Shown here: in pieces, positions 7 to 48,838 of the stretch | How the letters are laid out: the number at the start of each line of letters is the position of its first letter | How positions within the stretch are numbered: position 1 is the stretch's first letter | Assembly: GCA_028695935.1 (NCBI GenBank) | Contig: JAQVHY010000003.1 | Span: 1 to 60,963, forward strand | Reading direction: 5' to 3' | DNA from: Desulfobacca sp. | GTDB taxonomy: Bacteria > Desulfobacterota > Desulfobaccia > Desulfobaccales > Desulfobaccaceae | DNA length: 60,963 nt | Position numbers and translations under genes: made by a program | The notes under the pieces: generated by a model | Database searches by the model: none | The model's input: only the letters and a program-made list of their open reading frames with translations | Told to the model about the DNA's origin: nothing

Positions 7-441
7 CTAGGCCTTATGGGCGGCGCCTCCGTTTTTGACCGGACTGGGTCCCAGGGCCCGAATCTTGCCGGTCATCTCCTGAGCGATGCGGGCGAAGTGC
101 GGGACTTCTCCGGTCATGATGTAACGCATCTCTAACCGCTCGCTGCCGATTTCCAGATCGTCCAGGATCTTTTTGGTATATTGCAACCTTTTCTTAGCCA
201 CCAGGTTGCCGGTTTTGTGATGACATTCGCCTTCTTTGCAGGCCACCACATAAACGCCGTCGGCTCCGTCTTGGAAAGCCCGCAGCAGGTGGATGACATC
301 AATCCTTCCGGTGCAGGGCACTTCAATGATGGAGACATTGGTGGGATAACTTAAACCTTGCTCGCCTGCCTTATCGGCCATTTCATAAGGGCAGAAATGA
401 CAGGTATAAGCAATAATCGTTGGCTCAAAAGCTTCGCTCAT
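7..441 (-). CDS. MvhD/FlpD-like hydrogenase iron-sulfur (delta) subunit
   Basis: A 144-residue protein of the methyl-viologen-reducing hydrogenase delta-subunit family, a small iron-sulfur protein that passes electrons to HdrA in flavin-based bifurcating complexes. The cysteines of the family are visible: CHFC near residue 14, PCTGRID near 43, and CKEGECHHKTGN near 68-80. The length is normal for a stand-alone MvhD. An AAGGAG-type ribosome site precedes the ATG. It is the third gene of a leftward unit after a tandem HdrA protein and a second MvhD-like protein, so it is inferred to dock on that HdrA. The stop codon is 7 bases from the window edge, and further operon genes may lie outside. Family assignment is firm; the electron partner is unknown. 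Confidence 0.9.
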   Translation of the reverse strand: MSEAFEPTIIAYTCHFCPYEMADKAGEQGLSYPTNVSIIEVPCTGRIDVIHLLRAFQDGADGVYVVACKEGECHHKTGNLVAKKRLQYTKKILDDLEIGSERLEMRYIMTGEVPHFARIAQEMTGKIRALGPSPVKNGGAAHKA

Positions 442-486
442 TCCCCTACTCCTTCTGGCAAAATCTTCCGATTCTACCTTGCCATC

Positions 487-948
487 TTAGGTCTGAGTCA
501 CCATGGGCCGGAGCGCCGCGGCGACGTTCTCCCCAGGCCTTGACCCGCTTAGCGGGTTAGGCCCTAATTCCTTGATTCTGGCGGTCATTTCCTGGGCAAT
601 TTCCGTAAATCTAGGCCCCATGCTGGCGGATAGATTATACATTGCCACCCGGTCAGCGCCGAGGCCCAGATCATCCAGAATCTCTTTCACCCGTTCCACT
701 TTACGCCGGGCCCGGAAATTGCCGGTCCGAAAATGACACTCCCCTTCCCGACACCCAGCTACCAGGACTCCATCTGCGCCGTATTGAAAAGCCCGTAACA
801 GATGGATGGTCTTGATCCGCCCCGAACAAGGGATTTGGATGATCAAGACATTAGCCGGATAACTTAACCGCATGGATCCGGCCAGATCCGCCGCCGCATA
901 AGCACAAAAATGGCAACAGAAAGCCAGGATTATCGGTTCGAAAACTAT
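487..948 (-). CDS. MvhD/FlpD-like iron-sulfur subunit with non-canonical start
   Basis: The ORF track starts this gene at 873, which cuts off the conserved N-terminus. Reading in frame upstream gives ..VFEPIILAFCCHFCAYAAADLAGS, which aligns with the start of the neighbouring MvhD gene and carries its first cysteine motif. No ATG, GTG or TTG exists in the extension. The best-placed codon is ATA at 948-946, about 8 bases after the purine run GGGGAAAGG, giving about 153 residues. Other motifs are PCSGRIK and GCREGECHFRTGN. It lies between the tandem HdrA gene and the first MvhD gene, with short gaps that suggest one transcript. The ATA could be a true rare start, a sequencing error for ATG, or a sign of decay. 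The family is sure; the start is not. Confidence 0.8.
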   Translation of the reverse strand: MVFEPIILAFCCHFCAYAAADLAGSMRLSYPANVLIIQIPCSGRIKTIHLLRAFQYGADGVLVAGCREGECHFRTGNFRARRKVERVKEILDDLGLGADRVAMYNLSASMGPRFTEIAQEMTARIKELGPNPLSGSRPGENVAAALRPMVTQT

Positions 949-1026
949 GTTTAAGACCTTTCCCCGGGTAATCAGCCCGGTTTGCCCTTCCTAATTGGCT
1001 ATAGGTGGTGCGCCTCTTTACCACCT

Positions 1027-3873
1027 TCAACCGGCCGCTTCGGCTAACAGGGCATCGCATTTGGCCAGCAACTGGGCATCAGTATAGCTCTGCAAGGTAA
1101 TGGCCTTGGCCGGACATTCCGCCGGACAGATACCACAACCCTGGCAGCGGGCCGGATCGATCACCGAGTAGCCGTCTTCACAGATATAGGGCACCTCGTA
1201 CGGACAGGCCCGCACACAGATCAGACAGGCGGCACAGATGTCCTTATCCACTACCGCCACCACCCCGCCGATGCGCTGGCGCTCAGCGGCCAGCACGGTT
1301 AAGGCCCGACCGGCCGCGGCCTGGGCCTGGGCGATGGTCTCGGTGATCAGTTTGGGCGCGTGGGCCAAACCGCACATATAGACGCCTTCGGTGAAGAAAT
1401 CTATAGGCCGTTGTTTTAAATGGACTTCCTGGAACCAGCCCAGGTTATCACGCTCCAGCTTCATGGTCTGGGCTAAGGCCTCGTTGTCACCGGGCACCGC
1501 GCCGGTGCTTAAGGCCAGGATATCGGGACTGAGGGTAACCTCGCGGTCCAAGATCAGATCTTTAAAGCGAATGCTTAACCGACCGCCTCTGTCCTCGGCA
1601 ATCGGCGGCTCTTGACGCCGATAACGGAACAACATGACCCCTTGCTTGCGGGCTTCCTGATAATAATCTTCCATCAGCCCATAGGTGCGCATATCGCGGT
1701 ACAGGATAAAGACATTTGCTTCGGGATTTAGCTTTTTGATATGTAAAGCGTTTTTGATCGCCGCCTGGCAACAGATGCGGCTGCAATTGGGGTTTTCCTG
1801 ATTCCGGGAGCCGACGCACTGGATCATGGCGATACTTTTCCAGCCCCTGGCCTCCTCCGGTTTAGTGGATAGACGCTCTCCCAATTCCAGTTGCGTCACC
1901 ACGGCCGGATTCTGACCATATAAATATTCCTTGGGTTTATAGGGCTCAGCCCCGGAGGCGACAATGGCGACGCCATGCCGGAGCTCCCGGGTGTCCCCAG
2001 CTACCTTAATTTTTGAGGTAAAGTCACCCTTTATCCCTTTAAATTCAACGATCTCGCTATTGGTCAGGACCTCGATCTGCGGATGGGCCTGGACCTGGGC
2101 AATCAGGTCCTGGAGGTAGGCCTGGACATCATCGCCCTCAATAGTGTTATAGAGACGGCGGGCGATGCCTCCCAGTTCTCCGGTCTTTTCGATCAGGGTA
2201 ACGGGAAAACCTTGCTGGGCCAGACTTAGGGCGGCATTCAGGCCGCCGATGCCGCCGCCCACGACCAGACCACTTCTGGTGACCGGCACCTCGGCTTCGC
2301 TAATCGGTTGCCGCAGGTTGGCGTCGGCGACGGCCATGCGGATCAGACCCTTGGCCTTTTGGGTAGCCTTCGCAGGTTCACCTTTATGGACCCAGGCAAC
2401 CTGTTCCCGAATATTGGTCATTTCCATCAGATACTTATTGAGACCGGCACTCTGCACAATATCCTGATACTGTTGCCGGTAATTGCGGACCGAACCCGCG
2501 GCCACCACCACCCGGTTGAGGTTGTTTTGCTGGATAATGTCCTTCATCTTTGCCGGGCCACCGGGGTTGCACAAGAACTCTCCGATTTCGGCCAGGGCAA
2601 CGTTAGCCAGGGTTTTGGCATAAGAGGCCAAAGCCGGAAGGTCTAGACTGCTGGAATCAATCCCACAACTATCAATAAATACTCCCACCCGAGGAGCTTC
2701 ACCGGAGACCTCACGTTCCGCCGGATAGCTCTTGGGTTTGGCCACCGTGCCCCGGACGTTATTTAGATCCGCCGACACCGCGGCCACCGCGGCCGAGGCC
2801 TGGGTTACGGATTCGGGAATATTTAACGGATTCTGAAAAGCCCCGCACACATAGATACCCGGCCGGTTGGTCTTTACCGGCTGGAAGGTGGAAGTCTGGG
2901 CAAAATTATGTTGGTTAAGTTCAACCCCTAGTTTATGGGCCAACTCCTGGGTCGCCTTGGTGATTTGCATACCTACGGACAGCACCACCAGGTCGTAGAC
3001 CTCAACCTGGCTCTGACCGGTATCATCAATGTACTTTAGACTTAAGTTATGGTTTTCTACCGGGTCGATAGTATGGATGCGGGAGCGGATCAGTCGCACC
3101 CCTAAATTCTCCGCCCGGTGCAGATATAGCTCAAAATCCTTGCCAAAGGTGCGGATATCCATAAAAAAGATGCTGGTCTCGGGCGGCTCCGGACACAGTT
3201 CCTTGGCCATCATGGCTTCTTTAAGCGCATACATGCAGCAGATCGAAGAACAATAGGCATTATCGCCATGATGAATGTCCCGGGAACCCACGCATTGGAA
3301 CCAGGCAATCTTTTTGGCCTCCTGACCGTCAGACGGGCGTAGGAGACGGCCGCCGGTGGGACCGGTACCCGACAAGAGGCGTTCAAATTCTAGGCTATTG
3401 ATGACATTAGGATAGTCAGCATAATGATAAACATCATATATGGTTGGATCAAAGACCTCATAGCCAGGAGCCAGAATAACGGCCCCTATCTTTAGGTTTC
3501 GGGCTTGGGACTCCGAGCCGACCCGGACCTGGGCCTGGAAGTTTCCTGGTTCCCCCTCTAATTTCTGGAGGTCAGCCTGGGGCAGGAACTCGATAAAGGG
3601 ATGGCGGGTAACTTCCACAAACCCATGGGTATCCTGTTTCGGGCAGACCATACAGAGGAAACAGTCATGGGTGGGAAACATCTTGTCCAGTTCTGCGGTG
3701 ACCCCGCCAACCTTGGCGGTTTTTTCCAATAAATAAACATAATAACCCGAGTTGGCCAAATCTTCGGCGGCCTGGACGCCTGTCACCCCGGCTCCAACTA
3801 CCAGGACGGCGCCGCTAGGACCCCCACTCTGGCCTGGATTCGACCCACTTTTTTCTATACCTCGCTCCGCCAT
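1027..3873 (-). CDS. Tandem HdrA-like FAD/iron-sulfur protein (HdrA-HdrA fusion)
   Basis: A 948-residue flavoprotein of the heterodisulfide reductase subunit A family. Two FAD-binding halves are visible: VVGAGVTGVQAAEDLA near residue 25 and VVGGGIGGLNAALSLA a little past the middle. Each is followed by the family CVGSR...CS.ICC signature. The second half begins with a recognisable HdrA N-terminal domain, but two usual cysteines are replaced (AAGSVRNY for AACSPxxH, and REQVAWVH for REHCSWVH). The internal ferredoxin insert of ordinary HdrA is also absent. The C-terminus has two [4Fe-4S] motifs, CAACLICVRAC and CQGCGICPAEC. Typical HdrA is about 650 residues, so this is a fusion, comparable to a QmoA/QmoB-like arrangement in one chain. 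It heads an operon with two MvhD-like genes. Cytoplasmic electron transfer is inferred; the substrates are unknown. Confidence 0.88.
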   Translation of the reverse strand: MAERGIEKSGSNPGQSGGPSGAVLVVGAGVTGVQAAEDLANSGYYVYLLEKTAKVGGVTAELDKMFPTHDCFLCMVCPKQDTHGFVEVTRHPFIEFLPQADLQKLEGEPGNFQAQVRVGSESQARNLKIGAVILAPGYEVFDPTIYDVYHYADYPNVINSLEFERLLSGTGPTGGRLLRPSDGQEAKKIAWFQCVGSRDIHHGDNAYCSSICCMYALKEAMMAKELCPEPPETSIFFMDIRTFGKDFELYLHRAENLGVRLIRSRIHTIDPVENHNLSLKYIDDTGQSQVEVYDLVVLSVGMQITKATQELAHKLGVELNQHNFAQTSTFQPVKTNRPGIYVCGAFQNPLNIPESVTQASAAVAAVSADLNNVRGTVAKPKSYPAEREVSGEAPRVGVFIDSCGIDSSSLDLPALASYAKTLANVALAEIGEFLCNPGGPAKMKDIIQQNNLNRVVVAAGSVRNYRQQYQDIVQSAGLNKYLMEMTNIREQVAWVHKGEPAKATQKAKGLIRMAVADANLRQPISEAEVPVTRSGLVVGGGIGGLNAALSLAQQGFPVTLIEKTGELGGIARRLYNTIEGDDVQAYLQDLIAQVQAHPQIEVLTNSEIVEFKGIKGDFTSKIKVAGDTRELRHGVAIVASGAEPYKPKEYLYGQNPAVVTQLELGERLSTKPEEARGWKSIAMIQCVGSRNQENPNCSRICCQAAIKNALHIKKLNPEANVFILYRDMRTYGLMEDYYQEARKQGVMLFRYRRQEPPIAEDRGGRLSIRFKDLILDREVTLSPDILALSTGAVPGDNEALAQTMKLERDNLGWFQEVHLKQRPIDFFTEGVYMCGLAHAPKLITETIAQAQAAAGRALTVLAAERQRIGGVVAVVDKDICAACLICVRACPYEVPYICEDGYSVIDPARCQGCGICPAECPAKAITLQSYTDAQLLAKCDALLAEAAG

Positions 3874-8582: not shown

Positions 8583-10154
8583 ATGGGTTGGCCGGGAGGA
8601 TCGACCACACTGCTAGTGATAGTAGTGATTGGCGGCTTAGGTCTGCTGGCCGGCTTCTATCTCCGCAAAATGATCCTGGAATCCCGGATCAAATCTGTGG
8701 AGTGCCTGGCTAAGAAAATGTTGGACGAAGCCAGGAAAGAGGCCGAAGGCATCAGAAAGGAAGCCAGTCTTCAGGCAAAGGATCAGCTTTATCAATTAAA
8801 AGTCGAGTTCGATAAGGAGGCCCGGGAACGTCGGCTAGAATTAAATATCTTAGAGAAACGGCTGCTGCAAAAAGAGGAGCACCTGGAACGCAAAACCGCT
8901 ACCCTGGACGCCAAAGACTCGGAATTGGCCAAGCGGGAAAAAGCCATCGTCAAGACCGAAAAAGGCTTACAAGAACAGGAAAACCGTTATCAGCAATTAA
9001 TCCAGGAACAAAAAAACCAGTTGGAGCGCCTGGCGGGTATCAGTTCGGAAGAGGCCCGCAGTCTTCTGCTCCAGGCCTTGGAACGAGAGATTCGCACTGA
9101 TGCCGCCCGCATGGTCAAAAGGGTCGAGGCCGAGGCCCGGGAACTGGCCGATAAGAAGGCCAAAGAGGTAATCGCCCTGGCCATTAAACGCTATGCCGGT
9201 GATTATGTGGCCGAGCAGACGGTGTCGGTGATAAACTTACCCAACGAAGAGATGAAAGGCCGGATCATCGGTCGAGAAGGCCGTAATATCCGGGCTATTG
9301 AAGCTGCCACCGGGATCGACGTCATCATTGACGATACTCCCGAGGCGGTAATTCTTTCCGGGTTTAATCCTATCCGCCGGGAGGTAGCCCGGCTGTCGTT
9401 GGAGCGCTTGATTACCGATGGTCGTATCCATCCGGCCCGGATTGAGGAAATTGTTGACAAAGTGACCCAGGAAATGGAGGTCAATGTCCGGGAAGCTGGT
9501 GAAGAGGCGGCCTTTGACGTGGGCGTGCACGGTCTGCACCCGGAATTGATCAAGCTCTTGGGAAAGCTTAAATACCGCACCAGTTTCGCCCAGAATGTCC
9601 TCCAACATTCAAAGGAAGTTGCTTTCCTGTGCGGTATTATGGCCTCGGAACTGGGAGTTAATGTCAAACAGGCCAAACGGGCCGGGCTGTTGCATGATTT
9701 GGGTAAAGCGGTGGACCACGAAATTGAGGGTCCACATGCCCTGATCGGGGCGGAATTAGCCAAACGTTACGGCGAGTCGCCCAAGGTCGTGCATGCCATC
9801 GCGGCTCATCATGAGGATGTCCCGCCGGAAAGTTTGTTGGCCATCCTGGTGCAAGCCGCCGATACATTATCCGGAGCCCGGCCGGGAGCCCGACGGGAAA
9901 TGCTGGAGTCCTATGTCAAACGGCTGGAGGAACTGGAAAAGATTGCCCGTTCCTTTAATGGCGTCAGTAAGACTTACGCCATCCAGGCCGGTCGCGAGGT
10001 TCGCCTGATCGTGGACAGCGACCAGCTCAGCGATGAGGAGGCGGTATTGCTCAGCCGGGAGGTAGCCAAAGAGGTGGAGAAGAAGCTGACCTATCCCGGA
10101 CAGATCAAGGTTACAGTAATCCGTGAGACCCGGGCCGTAGAATATGCCCGTTAA
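8583..10154 (+). CDS. rny: Ribonuclease Y
   Basis: A 523-residue membrane-anchored endoribonuclease that starts mRNA decay. Domains appear in the family order. There is an N-terminal membrane segment (LLVIVVIGGLGLLAGFYL), then a long charged coiled coil to about residue 200. A KH domain follows (GRIIGREGRNIRAIEAATG), then an HD domain with the catalytic pair in LLHDLGKAVDHE and HAIAAHHED, and the conserved C-terminal domain. Length is normal. The ATG is preceded by a strong GAGGGGAGAA site. The order zapA, 6S RNA, rny, ymdB is typical of deltaproteobacteria. Confidence 0.97.
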   Translation: MGWPGGSTTLLVIVVIGGLGLLAGFYLRKMILESRIKSVECLAKKMLDEARKEAEGIRKEASLQAKDQLYQLKVEFDKEARERRLELNILEKRLLQKEEHLERKTATLDAKDSELAKREKAIVKTEKGLQEQENRYQQLIQEQKNQLERLAGISSEEARSLLLQALEREIRTDAARMVKRVEAEARELADKKAKEVIALAIKRYAGDYVAEQTVSVINLPNEEMKGRIIGREGRNIRAIEAATGIDVIIDDTPEAVILSGFNPIRREVARLSLERLITDGRIHPARIEEIVDKVTQEMEVNVREAGEEAAFDVGVHGLHPELIKLLGKLKYRTSFAQNVLQHSKEVAFLCGIMASELGVNVKQAKRAGLLHDLGKAVDHEIEGPHALIGAELAKRYGESPKVVHAIAAHHEDVPPESLLAILVQAADTLSGARPGARREMLESYVKRLEELEKIARSFNGVSKTYAIQAGREVRLIVDSDQLSDEEAVLLSREVAKEVEKKLTYPGQIKVTVIRETRAVEYAR

Positions 10155-43206: not shown

Positions 43207-43950
43207 TTACCAGAACATCCTGATGGCCAGGATGACCAGCAGGGCCGCAAAGATCTTTTTAAAGGTCGGGCCCGAAACGTAGGTCAATAACCGGGCGCCG
43301 ATCTGGGCCCCCAGGATACCGCCGACCCCCCAGGCCAGGCCAATCGGATAATTGACATGGGCCAACTTGCCGTGGGCCACCAGGGCCGAAAGCGAAATGA
43401 TCAGGATGGCCAGAAAAGAAGTCCCTACTGCCTCCTGCACCGACAGACCTAAGAAAATAGCCAGCGGCACCATAAGAAAGCCGCCGCCCAGACCGCTGAA
43501 ACTGGCGGCAACCCCGACCAGCACCCCAAGCAGTAACATGGCCAGGGCTTGCCAAAGCCCTCGACCCGGTGTCGGCGAATTCGGGGCGGTTACCGGACTC
43601 GCCGGGGTTTTTCCCTGGGTGAAGGCCATACGCAGCGCCAGAAGCAAGAGAATCAGGGCAAACAGTTTTTTAAAGGTAGCCGCGGCTACATAGGGTAGCA
43701 AGCGAGCGCCAACCTGGGCCCCCAGCAACCCGCCCGCCCCTAACAGCAGGCCGATGCGGCGGTTGACGTGCTGCAGACGGCGATGGGCGATGACCGCGGA
43801 TAAGGAAATGACCACAATGGCCAAAAAAGAGGTGCCCACCGCCTCCGGAACGCTGAGGCCCCAGAAAATGCCCAGCGGCACCATCAAAAAACCACCGCCC
43901 AGGCCGGTGAAGCTGGCCCCCAGGCCGACGGCCACGCCGACCATGATCAT
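43207..43950 (-). CDS. TauE/SafE-family membrane permease
   Basis: A 247-residue membrane protein with an obvious internal duplication. GASFTGLGGGFLMVPLGIF in the first half returns as AASFSGLGGGFLMVPLAIF in the second, followed in both by EAVGTSFLAI and the GLLGAQVGARLL / GILGAQIGARLL pair. This is the TauE/SafE fold, which exports sulfite, sulfonates or other organic anions. Its start lies 14 bases after the HdrA gene stop, so it is the last gene of the Hdr operon. That suggests, without proving, a sulfur-related substrate. Confidence 0.9.
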   Translation of the reverse strand: MIMVGVAVGLGASFTGLGGGFLMVPLGIFWGLSVPEAVGTSFLAIVVISLSAVIAHRRLQHVNRRIGLLLGAGGLLGAQVGARLLPYVAAATFKKLFALILLLLALRMAFTQGKTPASPVTAPNSPTPGRGLWQALAMLLLGVLVGVAASFSGLGGGFLMVPLAIFLGLSVQEAVGTSFLAILIISLSALVAHGKLAHVNYPIGLAWGVGGILGAQIGARLLTYVSGPTFKKIFAALLVILAIRMFW

Positions 43951-43964
43951 GACCAGGAGATAAA

Positions 43965-45608
43965 TTATTGGCCTCCGGGTCGACTGGCTTTGGCTAACAG
44001 GGCATTAAACATATTGAGGACTCGGGCCGCGACGCCGCTGCCCTGGCATACCGTGGTAGTGATATCTTGCGGACCCTGGCAGGTCCCGGCCAGGAACACG
44101 CCGGGGAGCGTAGAGTCCAGGGGATGCAACACCGGTTCCCGACATTGGTAAAAACCTAGCCCATCGCGGGCCGGGGCCGGACCGGCAAAAGGTAAATTCT
44201 CCTTGGGGGCTTCCAATCCCACCGCTAAAACGACTAAATCCGCGGTAAGCTGGGCGCGACGGCCGGTATGTTGGTTTTCGTAAGCAATTACCGCCTGGCC
44301 GGTCTCATCTTCCTGGATGCGCCCCGGTAAGCCCTTGATAAATTTCACCCCGGCCTGCCGGGCGCGCTGGTAGAGTTCTTCAAAGCCTTTGCCCGAAGTG
44401 CGGATATCATTATAGAAGATAGTCACTTCGGCCTCGGGCTGATGTTCCAGGGCCAGCATCGCTTCCTTGATCGAGGCCGTGCAGCAATAGCCCGAGCAGT
44501 AAGGTAAAAAGCGGCGGTCCCGGGAGCCGACGCATTGGATAAAGGCCAGGCGCCGCACCGGGCGGCCGTCGGGCGTGACCAGACCGCCTAAGGTCGGGCC
44601 CGAAGCACAGACAATCCGTTCGTATTCCAAATTGGTGACCACCGTCGGGATGCGGCCATAGCCATATTCACTTTTGATGCTGGGGTCAAAAGGCCGGGCC
44701 CCGGTAGCCAGGATAATGGCCCCGACCGTGAGCTGCCGGGATTGGGGTTCTTCTTCTAAATTAATCGCCTGATGTTCGCAGGCCTTGACGCACAACTGGC
44801 AGTCAATACAATATTCCTTGTCGATGGCCGCTCTGAGCGGCACGGCCTGGGCAAACCAGATGCGGATACATTTGCTGGGCTTGAGGTCCAGATCCCAGCG
44901 GCTGGGAACAATTATCGGACAGACTTCGGTACAGGAGCCGCAACCCACACATTTGGTCATATCCACATAGCGAGGTTTCAGGGTCAGATCTACCTCAAAG
45001 CCCCCGGCCTGCCCGGCAATCCGATCGATGCTAACGTAGGTCAACAATTCAATATTGGGATGACTGGCCACTTCCACCAGTTTGGGACCCAGGATGCAGA
45101 TCGAGCAGTCCAGGGTGGGAAAGGTCTTGTCTAATTGGGCCATAATGCCGCCGATGCTCAAGGCCCGGTCCACCAGATAGACCTTATGCCCGGCCCTGGC
45201 CAGATCCAAAGCCGCCTGGCAGCCGCCGACGCCGCCCCCAACAATCAAAACCGCGGGAGAAACCGGAGCAATCGACGGCTCTGGGTGGAAAGCCGTGGTC
45301 TGGGCCAGGGTTAACGCGGCCACGGCGCTCTCCAGATCACTATAAGCCAAGAGATCAACTACCCGCAGCGCGGCCGCCGGGCCCAGGCGTTGGAACAGCC
45401 CGGCATGACGCTCCGGGCCACAGGCGGCAATAATCCACTCCCCGGTTGGGCTGGCCAGCCGCGGGCGCAACTGCATCAGGCCGTCGGGGGTGCACAGCGG
45501 CGGGAGCAATTGGACCTCGGCCCCGTCCCGCTCCAGCCAACTAACCAGAGCCTGGGCGTCAAGGGCCAGCTCCGGGCACTGGCAAACTATGATCTTGACC
45601 TTAGCCAT
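43965..45608 (-). CDS. HdrA-like FAD/iron-sulfur protein (QmoA-like size)
   Basis: A 547-residue HdrA-family flavoprotein. The N-terminal 110 residues look like a shortened HdrA iron-sulfur domain with CQCPE, LCTPDG and AACGPERH. The FAD motif is LIVGGGVGGCQAALDLA. Between the two FAD parts is a ferredoxin insert with CVGCGSCTEVC and CIDCQLCVKAC. The family motif CVGSRD...YCSGYCC and the C-terminal VFLAGTCQGPQDI are present. There is no MvhD part. The start overlaps the stop of the HdrA-MvhD gene by 8 bases, so the two are coupled and probably form a heterodimer like QmoA/QmoB. Confidence 0.92.
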   Translation of the reverse strand: MAKVKIIVCQCPELALDAQALVSWLERDGAEVQLLPPLCTPDGLMQLRPRLASPTGEWIIAACGPERHAGLFQRLGPAAALRVVDLLAYSDLESAVAALTLAQTTAFHPEPSIAPVSPAVLIVGGGVGGCQAALDLARAGHKVYLVDRALSIGGIMAQLDKTFPTLDCSICILGPKLVEVASHPNIELLTYVSIDRIAGQAGGFEVDLTLKPRYVDMTKCVGCGSCTEVCPIIVPSRWDLDLKPSKCIRIWFAQAVPLRAAIDKEYCIDCQLCVKACEHQAINLEEEPQSRQLTVGAIILATGARPFDPSIKSEYGYGRIPTVVTNLEYERIVCASGPTLGGLVTPDGRPVRRLAFIQCVGSRDRRFLPYCSGYCCTASIKEAMLALEHQPEAEVTIFYNDIRTSGKGFEELYQRARQAGVKFIKGLPGRIQEDETGQAVIAYENQHTGRRAQLTADLVVLAVGLEAPKENLPFAGPAPARDGLGFYQCREPVLHPLDSTLPGVFLAGTCQGPQDITTTVCQGSGVAARVLNMFNALLAKASRPGGQ

Positions 45609-47961
45609 CGGTAGCCTGTGGTTCTTCCTCGGTCTGGTGCTTTAATTCCGCGGCCAGTTCATTGATAATCTGTTGAAAATTCCGGCCTTCGGTAGCAGAC
45701 ACCCAGGCCAGGCGCAGGCGCTGGAGGTCGATACCTTTCTTGGCCAATTTTTTCTTGAGCTTTTCGATCCGGGCCAAAGCCCGCAGATTACCGGAGACAT
45801 AATGGCAATCACCCGGGGGATGGCAACCAGAGATCAGCACCCGACCCGCGCCCTGGGCCAAGGCGTGCAGAATAAATTTTTGGTGCACCCGACCCGCGCA
45901 CATATAGCGAATGATGCGGACCGCGGGAGAATACTGCAAGCGCGACACTCCGGCAAAATCCGCGCCGGCATAGGAACACCAATTGCAGCAAAAGGCCAGA
46001 ATCTTATCTTCGGGATGATCGGCCAGGGCCTCGTCAATCTGGGCCATAATCATCTCATCGGTAAAGCCGCGGGCAATCACCGCGCCCGCGGGGCAGGCCC
46101 CGGCACAGACCCCGCAACCCTTACACGCGGCCTCAATGATCTGGGCCTTTTGCTTTTTGCCCTCGCCCACCATTTTGATGGCCTGAAAAGGGCACTCATT
46201 ATAACAGGTCTCGCAGCCGATGCACTTTTCCGGGTCGATTTCGCAGACAATGCCGTCCAGGGTAATGGTCTCGTAGGCAAACAACGATAAAATCTTGGCC
46301 GCGGCGCCGCTGGCCGAAGTGATTGATTCCGACAAGTCCTTGGGTCCTTGACAGGCCCCGGCCAGGTAGATGCCATCCAGCACGGTCTCCAGGGGGCGCA
46401 GCTTGGGATGGGCCTCCAGGAAAAAGCCGTCATCGCTGATCGGCAGTTTAAGCACGGCGCGCAACGGCGCGCCCCGCCCCGGTACCATGCCCACGGCCAG
46501 GACCGCCAGATCGACTTTATCCTCGCTTGCCGTCTGGAATAATTCGTTATCCGCCCGGATAATGACCCGACCGTCCTGATCCGCCTGAACTTCCTGGACC
46601 TGGCCCCGGATAAACAGCACTCCCGCTTCTCGGGCCTGGTTATAAAGGGCTTCCCAATCTTTCTTGGTGGTCCGCAGATCACGATAATAAATCCGGATGT
46701 TGGCCTGGGGCAAACGGCTTTTTAATTCCAAGGCCTGCCGTACCGCGGTCGGACAGCAGACCCGGGAACAGTAGCGGTTGCCCTCCTCTTCCCGGGAGCC
46801 GACACAGAGAATAAAGGCGATCTCCTGGGGCGGGGTAGACTCGCCCGGGGCCAGCACCTGGCCGGCGGTCGGTCCATCCGGAGCCAACAGGCGCTCCAAA
46901 GCCACCGTGGTAATCACCTTGGGAAGCGCGGCCCAGGACTCATAGCGGCTGCCTTGCGGGTCAAAGGGTAGAAAACCGCTGGCCACCACCATACTTCCAA
47001 ACCGTAAGTGGTGTTCGACCTCTTGAGCCGCTAAGTCAATGGCCTGGCGCGGACAGGCCGGGACGCATAGACCGCAACGGTTGCAATGTTCCTGATCGAT
47101 CACGTATGAAGCCGGAAACGCGTGCGGGGCCGGTAGATAAATGGCCTGGCGCGGGCTTAACCCCTGTTGCCGCTCATCCGGGACCTCCACCGGACAGACT
47201 TCTAGGCACTGGCCGCAACGATCGCAATCTTCATTCACCAGAGGCAAGGATTGCTGCACCGTCACCTGAAAATCGCCGACGTGACCGCTGACCTCAGTGA
47301 CTTCACTACTGGTCAGCACCTTGATGCCGGGATGCAGCGACACCGCGGCCATCATCGGGTTGATCAGGCTCAAGGCGGTCTGCCCACGGGGAAAGGTGTG
47401 GTGCAGGGCGTTGGCCATACCGCCCAGCACGGGCTGACACTCCACCAGGGTCACGGGGAAACCGGCATTGGCAATATCCAAGGCCGCCCGCAATCCGGCC
47501 GGACCGCCGCCGATGACCAAAGCCTGGCGGTAGAGCGGCACGACGCGATCAGTAAGGGGGCGGGCCAGGCGCACCCGGGCCAACCCCATCTTGATTAGCT
47601 CCAGGGCCTTATCCTGAGCCGCTTCCGGCTCCTGCATATGCACCCAGGAACAGTGTTCCCGGATGTTGACCATCTCCAGCAGATAGGGATTGACCCCGGC
47701 CTCGATCAGCAAGCGCCGAAAAGTCGGCTCATGGAGCTTGGGCGAACAGGCTGCGATCACCAGTCGATTCAGGCCCTGTTGCTGAATATCTTCCAGAATC
47801 TCGCGTTGCCCGGCCTCGGAGCAGGTGTAAAGGTGATGACGGCAAACCGTGACCTGGGGCAAATCCTGAGTCTGGGCGACCAGCGCTTCGGGACTGATGA
47901 CGCCGGCGATGTTTAATCCACAGTGGCAGATATAGAGGCCGATGCGAACTTCTTCGTCCAT
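45601..47961 (-). CDS. HdrA-MvhD fusion flavoprotein (HdrA2/QmoB-like)
   Basis: A complete HdrA fused to MvhD, about 786 residues. All N-terminal HdrA cysteines are kept (CHCGLNI, YTCSEAGQ, AACSPKLHEP, REHCSWVH). FAD motif: LVIGGGPAGLRAALDIA. Insert ferredoxin: CDRCGQCLEVC and CNRCGLCVPAC. C-terminal ferredoxin: CIGCETCYNEC and CKGCGVCAGAC. From about residue 650 the MvhD part has FCCNWCSYAGADFAG, YMCAGRVHQ and GCHPPGDCHYVSGN. The ATG at 47961 is preferred to the track TTG at 47970. Such fusions take part in flavin-based electron bifurcation with HdrBC, a hydrogenase or formate dehydrogenase, none of which is here. Confidence 0.93.
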   Translation of the reverse strand: MDEEVRIGLYICHCGLNIAGVISPEALVAQTQDLPQVTVCRHHLYTCSEAGQREILEDIQQQGLNRLVIAACSPKLHEPTFRRLLIEAGVNPYLLEMVNIREHCSWVHMQEPEAAQDKALELIKMGLARVRLARPLTDRVVPLYRQALVIGGGPAGLRAALDIANAGFPVTLVECQPVLGGMANALHHTFPRGQTALSLINPMMAAVSLHPGIKVLTSSEVTEVSGHVGDFQVTVQQSLPLVNEDCDRCGQCLEVCPVEVPDERQQGLSPRQAIYLPAPHAFPASYVIDQEHCNRCGLCVPACPRQAIDLAAQEVEHHLRFGSMVVASGFLPFDPQGSRYESWAALPKVITTVALERLLAPDGPTAGQVLAPGESTPPQEIAFILCVGSREEEGNRYCSRVCCPTAVRQALELKSRLPQANIRIYYRDLRTTKKDWEALYNQAREAGVLFIRGQVQEVQADQDGRVIIRADNELFQTASEDKVDLAVLAVGMVPGRGAPLRAVLKLPISDDGFFLEAHPKLRPLETVLDGIYLAGACQGPKDLSESITSASGAAAKILSLFAYETITLDGIVCEIDPEKCIGCETCYNECPFQAIKMVGEGKKQKAQIIEAACKGCGVCAGACPAGAVIARGFTDEMIMAQIDEALADHPEDKILAFCCNWCSYAGADFAGVSRLQYSPAVRIIRYMCAGRVHQKFILHALAQGAGRVLISGCHPPGDCHYVSGNLRALARIEKLKKKLAKKGIDLQRLRLAWVSATEGRNFQQIINELAAELKHQTEEEPQATDG

Positions 47962-47976
47962 AAATTCCAAATTTTA

Positions 47977-47997
47977 GGGGCGGGATGACCCCGCCCT
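47977..47997. repeat. Intercistronic GC-rich hairpin overlapping the polyferredoxin stop codon
   Basis: GGGCGGG-ATGAC-CCCGCCC forms a perfect 7-bp stem between the polyferredoxin and HdrA-MvhD genes and includes part of the polyferredoxin TAG stop. It resembles the TAGGGG...CCCCTA palindromes elsewhere. It could reduce read-through or protect the upstream mRNA. Confidence 0.7.
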
Positions 47998-48838
47998 AAT
48001 TGCCGATGAGTTTGGCCACGGCCTGCTCCCAGGCCTGGGAATATTCTCCCGGCTCGGCGACTACTTCTTCCCGAATCAGCGTAATGGCATCCTGATCGCA
48101 GATATTGAGGCAGACTCCGCAGTAAGCACAATCTTCAAACCTGAGGAAAACTCGCTCGCCTTCCCGGACGATCGCCTTGGTCGGGCACAAGTTAATACAT
48201 TTATTACAATCCGCCGGGCACTTGGCGTCGTCGATGATCAGCCGCCCCAAAAATTGGGGATTGACCTCAATGGCATCATAGTCACAGGACTGCAAACATT
48301 GGGTGCACCTGAGGCACAGCTCGGGCTGGGGCAGCACATTTTCGCCGGCCTCATCCCAGACAATGGCCTGCCGCTGGCAAGTTTCCACACAGACCTGACA
48401 ATGTTTGGGACAGTCCGTCTGGGTATTGGGGACCAGCTTGAGCTCGCGGCGGCACCAGCGCCACTCGGTATCCGGATTAATCGGACAGGGCAGCGGACAC
48501 TTGCTGGTGTCTATGTTAATTTTGGGTAAAAATGGCGCCAGACCCTGTTGATCAGCAAAAATAGTTTTGGGTTGCTGATTATAGTTGAGGCTGATGGCCG
48601 CTACCGGGCAGAAATGAGAACAGATTTCACATAAGACACAGAGCCGGGGATCAATGGTGATATCCAGGTCTTCCTCGCCGCAGATAATGGTCACTGCACT
48701 CCGGGGACAGACGAGAGAACAGATGTCACACTTCAGACAGGCCTGTTTGTCCAGGCTTAAGGTTACCTGGTCAACATACATCTGGAGACTGAGTTCCAGA
48801 TGATCCGCGGTTTCTCGTTTGGCTACCCTGGCTTTCAT
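47996..48838 (-). CDS. Polyferredoxin with six [4Fe-4S] motifs
   Basis: A 280-residue iron-sulfur electron wire. Six four-cysteine motifs can be counted: CLKCDICSLVC, CVLCEICSHFC, CPKHCQVCVETC, CLRCTQCLQSC, CPADCNKCINLC and CAYCGVCLNIC. Each is followed by a Cys/Pro-x-x-A-I type turn or a variant of it. Motifs 3 and 5 have C-x3-C spacing, as in methanogen polyferredoxins (FwdF or MvhB types). A further loop (CPLPCPINPDTEWRWC) has extra cysteines. It is the first gene of the operon with two HdrA proteins and probably carries electrons to or from them. AT-rich sequence upstream contains the promoter region, but no clear -35/-10 pair was settled. Confidence 0.9.
   Translation of the reverse strand: MKARVAKRETADHLELSLQMYVDQVTLSLDKQACLKCDICSLVCPRSAVTIICGEEDLDITIDPRLCVLCEICSHFCPVAAISLNYNQQPKTIFADQQGLAPFLPKINIDTSKCPLPCPINPDTEWRWCRRELKLVPNTQTDCPKHCQVCVETCQRQAIVWDEAGENVLPQPELCLRCTQCLQSCDYDAIEVNPQFLGRLIIDDAKCPADCNKCINLCPTKAIVREGERVFLRFEDCAYCGVCLNICDQDAITLIREEVVAEPGEYSQAWEQAVAKLIGN

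Follow-up and report, generated by a model that had tools for sequence, protein, structure and literature searches.

With which partners do two unequal HdrA flavoproteins and a polyferredoxin exchange electrons when HdrBC, QmoC and hydrogenase genes are all missing from beside their operon? The question is raised by a minus-strand operon of a Desulfobacca sp. (assembly GCA_028695935.1, contig JAQVHY010000003.1). The whole 60,963-nucleotide stretch analyzed, called the window here, is contig C179 of genome G000, one of 29 genomes sampled from Desulfobaccales, and all coordinates follow its numbering unless another locus is named. Three genes of the operon, hereafter the trio, encode an FwdF-like polyferredoxin (pFd; 47996..48838, 280 aa), a fusion of HdrA and MvhD (HdrA-MvhD; 45601..47970, 789 aa from a TTG start) and a smaller HdrA (sHdrA; 43965..45608, 547 aa). 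The operon is real and extends the Hdr–FwdF–Fwd architecture by a new variant from bacteria. The observations are best explained by a bacterial Hdr-FwdF-Fwd-like system of which the trio is probably the half that transfers electrons.

Coupling of Hdr to Fwd is known in methanogenic archaea, which use it to capture CO2 without spending ATP. A conserved, gene-linked counterpart in sulfate reducers, its catalytic residues altered, suggests an energy-coupling enzyme that has gone unrecognised, and the system is testable, as the existing pure culture Desulfobacca acetoxidans seems to contain both of its halves. The literature searched, which did not cover subscription papers, gave no earlier account of this gene cluster.

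Fwd-Like Partner Genes

The partners of the trio are recognisable, being unlinked in the window's genome and adjacent in relatives. In three lineages of Desulfobacterota, 16 genomes (G002, G006, G009, G014, G021, G022; G066, G101, G133, G233, G254; G209, G232, G332, G349, G366) have trio members in the same contig region as genes for an FwdB-like protein, an FwdA-like protein and an Fe-S protein of about 150 aa. The order in G021 is FwdB, FwdA, Fe-S, HdrC, HdrA(1057), DUF3795, pFd, HdrA-MvhD and sHdrA, on one strand and over about 13 kb, and G009 has a single run from FwdB to HdrA-MvhD with sHdrA elsewhere. The run in Desulfobaccales also includes hdrC, a fused HdrA of about 1000 aa and usually DUF3795. 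Three families outside Desulfobaccales (f13, f40 and f71) carry the trio as well: in f40 it is accompanied by genes for a ~153-aa Fe-S protein and for FwdB-like and FwdA-like proteins, and in f71 the accompanying genes encode a ~1050-aa HdrA, an FwdB-like protein and an FwdA-like protein.

In the window's genome, contig C149 carries FwdB-PPIase-FwdA-FeS-HdrC and ends at the start of an HdrA, and contig C22 starts within an HdrA that is followed by DUF3795. The contig ends share no exact overlap; we infer that the two contigs join as one locus because the whole Fwd-like locus is uninterrupted in G028 and HdrA is cut at both ends. In G023, a single chromosome from the same family, the trio is at about 1,064,999-1,070,084 and the Fwd-like locus at about 1,272,253-1,279,021. 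A preliminary description of the window had proposed a soluble electron-transfer complex deprived of HdrBC, QmoC and hydrogenase partners. A soluble electron-transfer complex is supported, and no HdrB, HdrC, QmoC or hydrogenase gene adjoins the operon in the window; the lack of partners applies to this neighborhood only, since Fwd-like partners exist and hdrBC- and qmoABC-type genes lie elsewhere in the genome.

Co-occurrence was scored in a sample of 395 genomes (sHdrA, E<=1e-150; FwdB-like, E<=1e-40). Both proteins were found in 27 genomes, sHdrA alone in 2, the FwdB-like protein alone in 6 and neither in 360 (Fisher p=9e-34); the corresponding counts are 14, 1, 5 and 357 outside Desulfobaccales (p=2e-20) and 18, 3, 1 and 7 in the 29 Desulfobaccales genomes (p=5e-4), all p-values being descriptive because the genomes are related and independence is overstated.

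Two further features of these loci may be mentioned. In several Desulfobaccales the genes for the FwdB-like and FwdA-like proteins are separated by one for a cyclophilin-type peptidyl-prolyl isomerase (L215 2506-3054, L216 6600-7127), and many ~1000-aa HdrA frames in relatives cross one in-frame TGA, possibly encoding selenocysteine.

The Polyferredoxin as an FwdF-Like Subunit

The best sequence matches of pFd in the PDB are FwdF proteins. Its AlphaFold model (predicted local distance difference test, pLDDT, 77.5; built from four sequences) matches FwdF of 5t61/5t5i at E about 1e-17 and 7bkc_K, the FwdF of the M. hungatei Fdh-Hdr-Fwd complex, with a template modeling (TM) score of 0.69 and a root-mean-square deviation of 4.6. 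In sequence and predicted fold, pFd is FwdF-like. It holds exactly six CxxCxxCxxxC-type motifs, which most orthologs keep. In some methanogens, formylmethanofuran dehydrogenases attach to heterodisulfide reductase via subunit F (PMC11656701). Homology, fold and gene linkage suggest that pFd may wire the flavoprotein pair to a core of the FwdB-like, FwdA-like and 150-aa Fe-S proteins, in parallel with FwdF joining HdrA to Fwd in methanogens.

A Predicted Heterodimer of Two HdrA Proteins

In the HdrA dimer of M. wolfeii, the N-terminal cluster of one subunit takes Cys197 of its partner as a ligand; in anaerobic methanotrophic archaea (ANME), tandem HdrAs divide these dimer features unevenly (PMC9012536). 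The Cys197 position is Ser201 in HdrA-MvhD of the window (codon 47368..47370, minus strand), so that the ligand is lost, and the equivalent residue is retained in sHdrA as Cys171 (codon 45096..45098, minus strand). Ser or Thr occupies this position in all 17 readable HdrA-MvhD proteins of Desulfobaccales, and Cys occupies it in 36/36 sHdrA orthologs and in a background set of 67/67 HdrA-MvhD homologs from other lineages; HdrA-MvhD of family f13 has also lost it. A homodimeric HdrA-MvhD of the window's lineage would therefore be unable to provide the cluster with a full set of four cysteines, and the obvious source of the missing ligand is sHdrA. From these residue patterns, the two FAD proteins HdrA-MvhD and sHdrA are predicted to pair as an asymmetric heterodimer, with Cys171 of sHdrA completing the N-terminal 4Fe-4S cluster of HdrA-MvhD. 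An AlphaFold model of sHdrA (pLDDT 57.8) was too poor and was left unused.

The same residue bears on the proposal that the trio is a bifurcating complex of the HdrA2 type, with HdrA-MvhD borrowing unlinked HdrBC to reduce a disulfide (e.g., DsrC) and pFd serving as the ferredoxin input. HdrA2 is the curated model closest to HdrA-MvhD (952 bits), hdrA2 of Methanosarcina acetivorans shares an operon with a polyferredoxin gene (PMC5296606), and the window's genome has hdrBC-type genes elsewhere. However, the score falls short of the 1100 set as cut-off for HdrA2, the lost Cys197 would be required in a homodimeric HdrA2, HdrA-MvhD is accompanied by a second dedicated HdrA, and its steady partner is the FwdB-like protein. 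Furthermore, no HdrB-type CCG motif occurs in 50 trio or Fwd-like loci, searched with a pattern that did find known HdrB in this genome and others; of the hdrBC pair beside the operon in relatives, which the preliminary description had named as evidence that would count against it, only hdrC is present, in Desulfobaccales. An HdrA2-type complex is accordingly unlikely.

Altered Fwd Residues and Proposed Mechanism

All trio-associated FwdB-like sequences examined keep the C..C.CLC[DE]D motif, are devoid of the Mo/W-ligand cysteine and have the SVCHGPS motif replaced; these include the sequence from f13, where the gene lies elsewhere in the genome and not at the trio. FwdB homologs of the trio-lacking genomes G204, G229 and G271 retain both the cysteine and SVCHGPS. 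The split is not perfectly clean, as a second FwdB homolog in G133 and a weak homolog in G103 are also without the cysteine. The metal-binding HxH of the FwdA-like protein is kept in f40 and lost in Desulfobaccales. Ftr is absent from the 29 Desulfobaccales genomes and FwdC gave weak partial model matches only, probably to other GXGXG proteins. A methanofuran pathway was rejected on the absence of Ftr and FwdC, and because the FwdB-like protein has in addition lost the Mo/W cysteine, formylmethanofuran is an unlikely substrate. An FwdB-like protein without its metal ligand may simply pass electrons on, in the manner of NuoG in complex I, or may hold a Mo/W site with new chemistry.

The analysis establishes the gene content and linkage, the co-occurrence, the FwdF-like fold of the pFd model, the Cys197 pattern and the separation from Qmo; from these we infer a physical complex in which HdrA-MvhD and sHdrA heterodimerise, pFd is wired to the FwdB-like protein, and bifurcation or confurcation takes place. 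HdrC and the fused double HdrA of Desulfobaccales would add another flavin module to this system, and flavin-based bifurcation or confurcation would be likely, with a low-potential couple reached via pFd and a higher-potential couple via HdrC. The chances appear to be even for the fuller proposal: a hitherto undescribed flavin-based bifurcating complex of bacteria on the Hdr-FwdF-Fwd frame, in which formylmethanofuran chemistry has been given up, the FwdB-like metal ligand has been lost and two unequal HdrAs act as a ligand-sharing heterodimer.

Several observations weigh against assigning the trio to an Hdr-FwdF-Fwd-like system of this kind. No contig of the window's genome carries both the trio and the Fwd-like half, and the Desulfobaccales FwdB-like and FwdA-like proteins score below curated cut-offs and have lost key residues. 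The co-occurrence, besides counting related genomes, depends on about four lineages together with apparent co-absences in Desulfobaccales, where G025 has the Fwd-like half without sHdrA and G026 and G211 show the reverse. HdrA-MvhD of f40 and f71 retains Cys197 and gives no sign of obligate heterodimerisation there, for which reason strict Cys197 complementarity across all lineages was rejected, and the shortened N-terminal domain of sHdrA still holds several aligned cysteines.

Phylogeny of the HdrA Proteins and the Qmo Question

Because QmoA and QmoB follow the same two-HdrA logic, the trio could be regarded as one more complex of the Qmo type, with AprAB or a different sulfur enzyme as the recipient of its electrons. 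A tree was built on the FAD core, with the apr-linked set of the window's own genome as the Qmo reference. The sHdrA proteins form a single clade (support 100/100) closest to the N-terminal units of fused HdrAs. QmoA and QmoB pair together, apart from the trio HdrA-MvhD proteins, for all of which a single clade is not strongly supported. Approximately unbiased (AU) tests reject sHdrA+QmoA (p=0.0036) and HdrA-MvhD+QmoB (p=0.010), so the grouping with QmoA/QmoB entertained in the preliminary description did not emerge, and Qmo membership of the trio was rejected by tree and AU tests. No qmoC was seen in the trio loci of the relatives examined. A search for hdrBC and qmoC elsewhere, as that description had suggested, located a complete QmoABC set, including a QmoC-like gene, beside an AprA-like gene on C141, and QmoA-like and QmoB-like proteins with HdrC and a CCG-domain protein on C68. 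With a Qmo complex already in place, a second one built from the trio is extremely unlikely. The C68 genes (L142, 6657-11304) are themselves a second Qmo-like locus, and the genome has other hdrB-type loci beyond C141 and C68.

Conservation of the Trio and the TauE Permease

The conservation of the trio is far beyond chance, with identities of about 54-96% across Desulfobaccales and about 41-54% in the three further families. Orthologs of sHdrA occur in 21/29 Desulfobaccales genomes, the order pFd, HdrA-MvhD, sHdrA being mostly fixed among the carriers, and in 15 more genomes from f13, f40 and f71, in 13 of which HdrA-MvhD adjoins. In G027 (L123, C86, about 8671-9861) the sHdrA match ends at residue 397 and the gene is then apparently frameshifted or deleted, which could be an error of the metagenome-assembled genome. 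An ArsA-like ATPase gene lies 3' of sHdrA in f13 (L170, L172) and a CooC-like ATPase gene upstream of pFd in L167; both possibly serve metal insertion.

The last gene of the operon (43207..43950, minus strand) encodes a TauE/SafE-type permease (PF01925, 2.1e-49), which had been taken as a hint at sulfur chemistry. The rival reading built on it is a stand-alone soluble complex that works in sulfur metabolism and has its product exported through TauE; it draws on the 14 bases that separate the permease gene from sHdrA and on a host that is a sulfate reducer (dsrA). Nevertheless, of the 21 Desulfobaccales genomes, G000 and G027, both of the window's genus, are the only ones to have the permease gene next to the trio, and the third genome of that genus does not have it there. 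Since dsrA occurs in 27/29 and CdhC in 25/29 Desulfobaccales genomes, these are sulfate reducers, mostly with carbon monoxide dehydrogenase/acetyl-CoA synthase (CODH/ACS); 7 of the 8 without sHdrA have full-length dsrA, and therefore the presence of the trio is not tied to sulfate reduction. Trio-less genomes of the order have both dsrA and CODH/ACS, and the idea that the trio goes with either was rejected for this reason. The permease, though cotranscribed-looking, is probably incidental and not part of the system, and the sulfur reading is very unlikely.

Operon and Domain Organization

The preliminary description of four genes in a tight operon is borne out, all open reading frames being found at its coordinates, and its account of a six-cluster polyferredoxin, a complete HdrA-MvhD fusion, a smaller HdrA and a TauE permease agrees with motif counts and family matches. 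The HdrA-MvhD and sHdrA genes overlap by 8 bases. Close orthologs of HdrA-MvhD begin at the ATG at 47961, three codons after the TTG, and the gap between pFd and HdrA-MvhD is therefore probably 34 bases, the latter protein then having 786 aa.

HdrA-MvhD matches HdrA along its entire length, plus FlpD/MvhD (PF02662, 3.5e-45). It comprises, all on the minus strand, an N-terminal cluster domain (about 47551-47946), an FAD core (about 46276-47535) with an inserted ferredoxin (about 47020-47238), a C-terminal ferredoxin (about 46072-46251) and the MvhD part (about 45637-46011). sHdrA has a short N-terminal domain and an FAD core with inserted ferredoxin, and is an HdrA without the C-terminal ferredoxin.

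A second Hdr locus of the window (7-3873, minus strand) encodes a 948-aa HdrA followed by two MvhD-like open reading frames. In G028 (L119), MetV- and MetF-like genes come after the counterparts of this locus, which are convergent with the trio at a distance of about 1 kb.

Comparison with Known Systems

The M. hungatei Fdh-Hdr-Fwd supercomplex (7bkb/7bkc) and other methanogen Hdr/Fwd assemblies (9sw6, 9sfi) contain HdrA, MvhD, an FwdF homolog and FwdA/FwdB-like proteins, which are also encoded together here. The present system differs in its bacterial host, in having two unequal HdrAs instead of one, in the absence of HdrB, FwdC and Ftr, and in an FwdB-like protein without the metal-ligand cysteine. 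In Methanosarcina acetivorans, HdrA2B2C2 likewise includes an HdrA-MvhD fusion, and its operon also encodes a polyferredoxin, whereas the trio locus has no HdrBC, a second, short HdrA and a fusion that has lost Cys197; HdrC alone is found, in Desulfobaccales relatives only.

Two unequal HdrA-like flavoproteins, one with an MvhD domain, are also a property of QmoABC; the trio, in contrast, is without QmoC, is not beside apr genes and falls in separate clades. The ANME tandem pairs HdrA5/6 and HdrA12/13 (PMC9012536) resemble the trio in that adjacent HdrA paralogs share Cys197 unevenly and are read as heterodimers; however, the ANME partners lose the N-terminal domain outright whereas sHdrA keeps a short one, and the gene partners differ. 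Finally, the fused double HdrA of MetFV-HdrABC-type loci provides two HdrA units per complex, the N-terminal ones being nearest to sHdrA, while in the system described here the two units are separate genes linked to Fwd-like genes.

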